Part shown: piece by piece, positions 7,285-8,243 of the stretch
Layout: each line of letters starts with the position of its first letter
Numbering within the stretch: the first letter of the stretch is position 1
Origin: Caulobacteraceae bacterium
Lineage (GTDB): Bacteria; Pseudomonadota; Alphaproteobacteria; Caulobacterales; Caulobacteraceae
Reading direction: 5' to 3'
Assembly: GCA_031291685.1 (NCBI GenBank)
Contig: JARLIP010000141.1
Coordinates: 1-41,382 of the forward strand
DNA length: 41,382 bases
Program-made: the position numbers and the translations under genes
The notes under the pieces: model-generated
What the model saw: the letters and a program-made list of their open reading frames with translations, nothing else
Database searches by the model: none
What the model was told of the DNA's origin: nothing

Positions 7285-7367
7285 TGTGTTCGCGGGTCGG
7301 ATTGAGGGGATGCATTCTTAACCCGATCGCGCTATATGCGGCTGATCAGCAGACGAGGATCGTCGAC

Positions 7368-7511
7368 ATGCCCTCTGGGCTCGACATCGCCAAAACGCCG
7401 CTCGCGGGCCACACGGCCCAGCGTCTGGCGTCGCTCGCCCTGAAAACCATGACCGCGATGATGATTACCACCATTCCCATGACAGGAACGGGGCTCACGC
7501 GCGCGCCATAG
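7368..7511 (+). CDS. Thr/Met/Ile-rich leader peptide of a ribosome-mediated attenuator
   Basis: This is a 47-codon ORF that starts at the ATG at 7368, 9 nt after a GAGG ribosome-binding site (7355-7358), and stops at TAG 7511. The 3' part reads MTAMMITTIPMTGTGLTRAP, with 6 Thr, 4 Met and 2 Ile in 20 residues. This recalls the E. coli thr operon leader (ThrL), whose control codons are Thr and Ile. An internal ATG at 7449 would give just these 20 residues but has no good ribosome-binding site. The control codons end just before a segment (7484-7495) that pairs with the terminator's 5' arm. I infer that stalling at scarce Thr, Ile or Met charged tRNA lets transcription continue into the ACT genes. 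The product is likely a sensor of translation, not a functional protein. Confidence 0.8.
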   Translation: MPSGLDIAKTPLAGHTAQRLASLALKTMTAMMITTIPMTGTGLTRAP

Positions 7512-7550
7512 GCCGCCGGACAGATCGAAGGATCTCTTAGCCCCGCTCCT
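7484..7550 (+). promoter_or_regulatory. Antiterminator of the Thr/Ile attenuator
   Basis: AGGAACGGGGCT (7484-7495, inside the leader ORF) can pair with AGCCCCGCTCCT (7539-7550) at 11 of 12 positions; the one mismatch is A7488 with C7546. The second segment contains the complete 5' arm of the terminator, so the two structures exclude each other. A ribosome stalled on the Thr/Met/Ile codons would leave 7484-7495 free and favour readthrough. A ribosome reaching the stop at 7511 would mask it and favour termination. A small hairpin, AGATC GAAG GATCT (7522-7535), lies in the loop between them. Confidence 0.75.
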
Positions 7551-7569
7551 CACCGGACGCGGGGTTTTT
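7541..7569 (+). terminator. Intrinsic terminator of the attenuator
   Basis: CCCCGC-TCC, loop TCACC, GGA-c-GCGGGG, followed directly by five T (7565-7569). The stem has nine base pairs with a one-base bulge. The terminator follows the leader stop by 29 nt and lies upstream of the ACT genes, where a terminator makes sense only as an attenuator. Confidence 0.85.
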
Positions 7570-7613: not shown

Positions 7614-7700
7614 ATGAAAATGATCCGCTCCATTCGTCCCACCCTCGGCAAAACCTCCGCCTCGTCCGTCTCCAACTTCAGGAACGCTTCCCATGCTTGA
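7614..7700 (+). CDS. Possible 28-residue small protein or coupling ORF before the ACT genes
   Basis: This ORF starts at ATG 7614, 8 nt after AGGA (7602-7605), and ends with TGA at 7698-7700, inside the first codons of the ACT gene that starts at 7693. The product starts MKMIRSIRPTLGKT and is basic and Ser-rich, with no recognisable domain. Its own good ribosome-binding site and the 8-bp overlap with the next gene suggest either a small protein or an ORF that couples translation into the ACT gene after attenuation is relieved. It could also be a chance ORF. I do not recognise it. Confidence 0.45.
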   Translation: MKMIRSIRPTLGKTSASSVSNFRNASHA

Positions 7701-7986
7701 CGCTCAACAAACCGCCGCCCCCGTCGCGCCCGTTCGCGACGAGGTTCACGTGCTCCTGATCGCCGCCCGCTCCAGCCGCGCGGCCCTTCTGGCCGTCGAG
7801 GACGCCCTGGGCGCCAGCGACGCCGAACTGTGCCGCCTGAACCTCAAGCCCGTTGGCGAGATCGTCGAGGCCACCGTCAAGCTGCGCGGCATCGACGCCG
7901 GCGCCGCGGACCGACTGGCCGCCCGCGTCGGGGCGCAGCTTGGGGTATGCAATGCCCGGGTTGAGCACCTCTGGGGGCTCAAATGA
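7693..7986 (+). CDS. Small stand-alone ACT-like domain protein (first of a tandem pair)
   Basis: The 97-residue protein has a short Ala/Pro-rich N-terminus and then one ACT-like fold (about 17-94). It starts with the strand EVHVLLIAARS, has a helix ending ALGAS, then strand LCRLNLKPVGE, a second helix DRLAARVGAQLG and a last strand NARVEHLWG. ACT domains bind amino acids and act as regulatory modules of enzymes such as acetolactate synthase, aspartate kinase and Rel. It aligns by eye with the following protein (LNLKPVGEIV with LDLRPQADNG), so the two look like an old duplication. Its start has the ribosome-binding site AGGA at 7680-7683. Its stop overlaps the next start in ATGA. It lies behind the Thr/Ile-type attenuator, which suggests a role in the aspartate or branched-chain amino-acid families. 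The function is not known to me. Confidence 0.75.
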   Translation: MLDAQQTAAPVAPVRDEVHVLLIAARSSRAALLAVEDALGASDAELCRLNLKPVGEIVEATVKLRGIDAGAADRLAARVGAQLGVCNARVEHLWGLK

Positions 7987-8243
7987 CGCCCACATCGGAG
8001 GTTCAGCGCACCTTCCTGATCGAGATTCAGGACGAGGCGGAGGCCGTGCTCAGGGTTCTTGGCGCCTTTGCCCTGGGCGGTGCGCGCCTGACCGGTCTGG
8101 ACTTGCGGCCTCAGGCGGACAACGGCCTGCGCCTGCAGGTCACCGCCGCCAACCTGGACGAACCGCGCAGCGCCTCCATCGCCCAGCGATTGGGTGCGCT
8201 GCCGATCGTGCGGGCGGTTTCATTCGGATGGCGCTCCACCTGA
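7983..8243 (+). CDS. IlvM-like stand-alone ACT domain protein (second of the tandem pair)
   Basis: The 86-residue protein consists of a single ACT domain: RTFLIEIQDEAEAVLRVLGAF, then GARLTGLDLRPQ, LRLQVTAANL, a helix RSASIAQRLGAL and strand IVRAVSFGW. By eye it resembles E. coli IlvM, the small regulatory subunit of acetolactate synthase II, in length and in the strand-helix pattern (EAVLRVLGAF compared with ETLERVLRVV). The difference is context: IlvM follows its catalytic subunit IlvG, but no catalytic gene is next to this one. The 4-bp overlap with the previous ACT gene indicates fixed stoichiometry, so the two may form a heterodimer. It may be a regulatory subunit acting on an enzyme encoded elsewhere. 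That partner is an inference and cannot be identified here. Confidence 0.75.
   Translation: MTPTSEVQRTFLIEIQDEAEAVLRVLGAFALGGARLTGLDLRPQADNGLRLQVTAANLDEPRSASIAQRLGALPIVRAVSFGWRST

Follow-up and report, generated by a model that had tools for sequence, protein, structure and literature searches.

In Escherichia coli, the leader thrL (thrLABC) combines Thr and Ile control codons with an exchange between terminator and antiterminator and responds to an aspartate-family signal. The leader unit described here shares all three properties, but thrL controls biosynthetic enzymes and its leader carries no Met or Lys emphasis. To our knowledge, known attenuators control enzymes, transporters or tRNA synthetases. 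A second E. coli leader, ilvL (ilvXGMEDA), resembles the present one in that its control block precedes a GC-rich, arm-encoding tail, and its operon encodes IlvM, an ACT-type AHAS small subunit; however, the ilvL codons are Leu, Val and Ile, and IlvM sits with a catalytic subunit and pathway enzymes. Within the same family as our locus, the Caulobacter crescentus ilvBN leader also works by leader-peptide attenuation, but its Ile and Val codons control AHAS itself, as stated in a passage of PMC4117421 that cites Tarleton 1994.

The locus analyzed here lies in a 41,382-nucleotide stretch of contig JARLIP010000141.1 from a Caulobacteraceae bacterium (the window), and all of its features are on the forward strand. 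As judged from sequence, the leader unit is very likely a ribosome-mediated transcription attenuator. A leader ORF of 47 aa (MPSGLDIAKTPLAGHTAQRLASLALKTMTAMMITTIPMTGTGLTRAP; 7368–7511, with ATG at 7368 and TAG at 7509–7511) is preceded by a Shine–Dalgarno-like GAGGA (7355–7359) located 8 nt 5′ of the ATG. The preliminary description had placed the control codons in the last 20 residues, where we found 6 Thr, 4 Met and 2 Ile; the Thr/Met/Ile cluster, assigned from codon enrichment in 62 leaders, spans 7446–7484. The antiterminator 5′ arm (region 2, 7484–7495) pairs at 11 of 12 positions, with a single A–C mismatch, with region 3 (7539–7550), which is both the antiterminator 3′ arm and the terminator 5′ arm. 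Between the leader stop and the terminator sits a small hairpin, A-GATC-GAAG-GATC-T (7522–7535). The intrinsic terminator (7539–7569) consists of AGCCCCGC (7539–7546), a loop, GCGGGG (7559–7564) and a T-run (7565–7569). Since the G-rich arm is able to pair with the terminator 5′ arm, antiterminator and terminator are mutually exclusive. The parts of a classical attenuator listed earlier, namely leader ORF, 11-of-12 antiterminator and T-run terminator, are thus all present in the window. Folded as a single sequence, the whole window leader was more stable than 200 of 200 shuffles (z −2.7). A simple terminator and promoter scan of the window listed nothing, and the terminator was probably missed because the loop limit of that scan is 8. 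The upstream pyrE and the downstream rel/spoT-type gene are both on the opposite strand, so the likely transcript unit comprises the leader and the small genes only.

The unit is conserved throughout the family. A search with ACT2, the second regulated gene product, followed by an ACT2 profile search, identified about 100 Caulobacteraceae genomes with the locus, and all 97 testable loci, meaning those with enough upstream sequence, carry a leader, an antiterminator and a T-run terminator in front of an orthologous small operon (95 scored by script, and L065 and L056 by eye). At each of the 97, a block of Met/Ile/Thr(/Lys) codons in the leader is accompanied by a tail that encodes the G-rich arm, about 30–50 nt 5′ of the GC-rich T-run terminator. 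Two weak matches, L114 and L115, were excluded as probably not being the ACT2 gene. Two genomes contain two ACT2 gene copies each: in G411 (L054 and L057) each copy has its own leader and terminator, and in G067 (L063 and L064) locus L064 ends at the contig end. The exact core pattern matched 30 times in 84,980 species genomes, only in Caulobacteraceae as far as the matches could be assigned (Caulobacter, Phenylobacterium and unclassified relatives); 29 of these are followed by an ACT gene and the remaining one ends at a contig end. Only 29 of 95 leaders have a suitable start with an SD-like motif. A literature search returned no report of this leader element or of the ACT operon.

A trans-acting role is possible for translated leader peptides and has been reported for Sinorhizobium peTrpL (PMC7298713), and the peptide itself might likewise be the functional product here. 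However, apart from the control block and the tail that encodes the arm, the leader peptide is poorly conserved, and we consider a trans-acting peptide very unlikely.

Alignment of 62 leaders formed the basis of the gap, covariation and codon analyses. Gaps in this alignment come in multiples of three within the leader ORF and become irregular 3′ of its stop. The antiterminator showed 11 compensatory cells, in which both sides had changed, against 4.0 in shuffles, a number that none of 500 shuffles reached; its covariation score exceeded those of all 500 shuffles and lay far above slid controls. Single-sequence pairing of the antiterminator beat shuffles by only a modest margin (mean rank 7.8 of 100), because everything in the region is GC-rich. 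The terminator and the small hairpin together were 89 percent paired in the alignment (terminator helix, 87 percent of cells; small hairpin, 96 percent). The small hairpin reads GATC-GCAA-GATC in most relatives, in which it is preceded on its 5′ side by GCCGAC. Conservation of the leader ORF and of the pairing in relatives, which the preliminary description had made the sequence-based test that could refute it, was therefore found together with compensatory changes.

We then asked which amino acids the leader reads. Control codons are concentrated just 5′ of the antiterminator arm: relative to the regulated genes, the nine codons 5′ of the arm in the 62 leaders are enriched in Ile (8.4-fold), Met (11.6-fold), Thr (5.2-fold) and Lys (7.2-fold) and depleted in Leu (0.11-fold), Val (0.5-fold), Ala and Gly, the frame having been chosen by M/I/T density, which inflates the enrichment somewhat. 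The most conserved control codons are Ile at −8 (46/62) and Thr at −6 (42/62). The Ile codon is ATT in 99 of 114 cases in the leaders but in only 20 of 206 in the ACT2 genes; in genes, unlike in leaders, ATC dominates. Thus the Thr/Met/Ile set proposed earlier holds for its three members and is refined by the addition of Lys and by the depletion of Leu and Val. By its codons, the leader is thus of the aspartate family and not of the branched-chain type. We take the signal to be Ile and Thr, and probably Met and Lys as well. The strongly conserved GATC-GCAA-GATC hairpin could instead suggest a metabolite riboswitch, or the unit might be no more than a terminator that happens to follow an ORF; however, an Rfam search of the window gave no match at the gathering score, and the codon-periodic conservation and the Leu/Val-depleted control block of the 62 leaders speak against both ideas, which are very unlikely.

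In the proposed ribosome-mediated mechanism, when charged tRNA-Ile and tRNA-Thr, and perhaps tRNA-Met and tRNA-Lys, are plentiful, the ribosome would reach the leader stop and mask the G-rich arm, so that transcription ends. When one of these charged tRNAs is short, the ribosome would stall on the control block, the antiterminator would form, and ACT1 and ACT2, or an SDH-beta-like protein and ACT2, would be made. The distance from the Ile −8 and Thr −6 codons to the downstream arm is roughly that of one ribosome footprint; judging by this size, a ribosome that stalls at these codons would just clear the arm. The Caulobacter subtype has an arm whose end lies up to 20 nt 5′ of the stop, so that its masking by a terminating ribosome is borderline.

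Of the two downstream proteins, ACT1 (97 aa; 7693–7986) is a paralog of ACT2 (profile E 1.4e-11), and ACT2 (86 aa; 7983–8243) has an ACT fold by structure model and resembles AHAS small subunits by profile; their genes overlap by ATGA. These coordinates correct those given before. An additional short ORF of 28 aa (MKMIRSIRPTLGKTSASSVSNFRNASHA; 7614–7700) is located between the terminator and the first gene. This second ORF overlaps the ACT1 start by 8 nt in the window and by 8–14 nt in the ACT1-type subgroup and is rich in Ile, Met, Thr and Lys; besides the window, seven further ACT1-type genomes have a comparable ORF, and so does L056. In the subgroup of the window, ACT1 translation is probably coupled to translation of this ORF. 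The earlier statement that two small ACT proteins are controlled holds for the window, but does not extend to all relatives: about two thirds of the loci have an ACT paralog as first gene, while at about a third this gene encodes a free-standing, serine-dehydratase-beta-like protein (R), which matches SDH_beta and PDB 2iqq/2iaf by profile and fold. R resembles the beta domain of L-serine dehydratase and ASB–ACT modules, but is free-standing and has no catalytic chain. In known allosteric enzymes such as SerA and SdaAB, the regulatory module consists of ASB plus ACT.

The structure model of ACT2 (pLDDT 90.9) matched homoserine dehydrogenase, IlvN and IlvH in the PDB. Pfam ACT_5 was detected in 28 of 55 ACT2 members, while the ACT1 and ACT2 proteins of the window itself gave no Pfam match. 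By profile, ACT2 is most similar to AHAS small subunits (E 1.5e-4 against E. coli IlvH), and its similarity to IlvM is weak (hhalign probability 67, E 5e-5). The glycine that usually contacts the ligand after the first strand of ACT domains is replaced by Asp in 49 of 55 ACT2 proteins. We therefore do not call ACT2 an amino-acid-binding ACT protein; it may instead serve as an accessory subunit of the IlvM type and not as a sensor. The preliminary description had suggested a sensor that binds an aspartate-family or branched-chain amino acid. Both the ACT fold of ACT2 and the likeness of the alternative first gene to an ASB-type domain would suit free-standing sensors with Ile or Thr as ligand and some partner to regulate, but the Asp substitution speaks against ligand binding, and we regard this as rather doubtful.

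That the products are IlvM-like accessory subunits of a catalytic enzyme, for which the single AHAS IlvB is the best candidate, is our leading but tentative proposal. By binding IlvB, they would bias the enzyme to isoleucine production under shortage of isoleucine or threonine. Neighboring genes vary between genomes, and no amino-acid biosynthesis gene was recognized among them at 13 loci; in particular, no AHAS catalytic gene was recognized among these neighbors or near the genes of the window. This lack of linkage counts against the IlvB role, as does the weak similarity to IlvM. Across 16 genomes, again contrary to this role, presence of the operon showed no phyletic correlation with the content of AHAS, homoserine dehydrogenase and threonine deaminase. 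A partner enzyme devoid of its own regulatory domain was also considered and dropped, as all three enzymes occur in 16 of 16 genomes, with and without the operon, and no candidate partner lacking its own regulatory part was found in operon-bearing genomes, as far as tested.

With the same attenuator, the ACT pair could alternatively act on the aspartate pathway, through aspartokinase, homoserine dehydrogenase or threonine deaminase. This fits the control codons, as Ile, Thr, Met and Lys all belong to the aspartate family, and ACT2 has ACT domains of homoserine dehydrogenase among its best matches by fold. However, homoserine dehydrogenase and threonine deaminase possess a C-terminal regulatory domain in genomes with and without the operon, the best profile similarity of ACT2 is to AHAS small subunits, and the tie between ACT relatives and the control of ileS speaks for isoleucine. 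An aspartate-pathway target is likewise a tentative idea, less likely than not.

The link to ileS comes from other Alphaproteobacteria, in which ACT2 relatives stand alone and are preceded by a leader different from the Caulobacteraceae unit, a short ORF that contains CGA-ATT-ANC, with a covarying hairpin after it. This element (CGAATTANCNNCCCGG plus the covarying hairpin, within the short ORF) lies before ileS and before stand-alone ACT genes, for example at L131, L138, L139, L164, L177, L178 and L180, among others. In 240 alphaproteobacterial genomes, the CGA-ATT-ANC motif occurred 76 times against 9 for a reversed control. It frequently lay in front of an ACT gene or of ileS, the latter at 13 of 30 loci read. 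An Rfam search with the ileS/ACT leader element returned no credible family; the leader hairpin is an undescribed element. At L139, the stand-alone ACT gene overlaps the ileS start, as if the two formed one operon. A leader element common to ACT2 relatives and ileS points to isoleucine independently of the Caulobacter leader.

The covariance model of the Caulobacteraceae leader additionally detected leaders of the same layout, rich in Leu, Val and Ile, immediately upstream of ilvD in further Caulobacterales (L149, L155 and L157). ilvD is a known kind of attenuator target. L149 even carries the same GGAACGGGGC arm, but the control block of these leaders is branched-chain and their target is an enzyme. 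The switch described here therefore looks like a branched-chain attenuator with a changed control block and target. Weaker matches of the model (e.g. L152–L154, L156 and L158) were left out of the count, as they look like ordinary terminators that follow other genes.

The fullest reading of these results is an aspartate-family attenuator whose targets are free-standing regulatory modules only, with a second translational layer and with ACT relatives in an alphaproteobacterial isoleucine regulon that includes ileS; we judge this combination nearly, but not quite, as likely to be right as wrong. If true, an attenuator that controls only small regulatory proteins would constitute a two-step feedback circuit: the level of a regulator would be set by translation of an amino acid, and starvation for Ile, Thr, Met or Lys would produce proteins that retune an enzyme rather than more of the enzyme. 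Two small uncharacterized protein families would thereby gain a likely role in Ile/Thr metabolism. The genetic model organism Caulobacter vibrioides has the conserved unit, and the circuit, its signal and its target are therefore directly testable.
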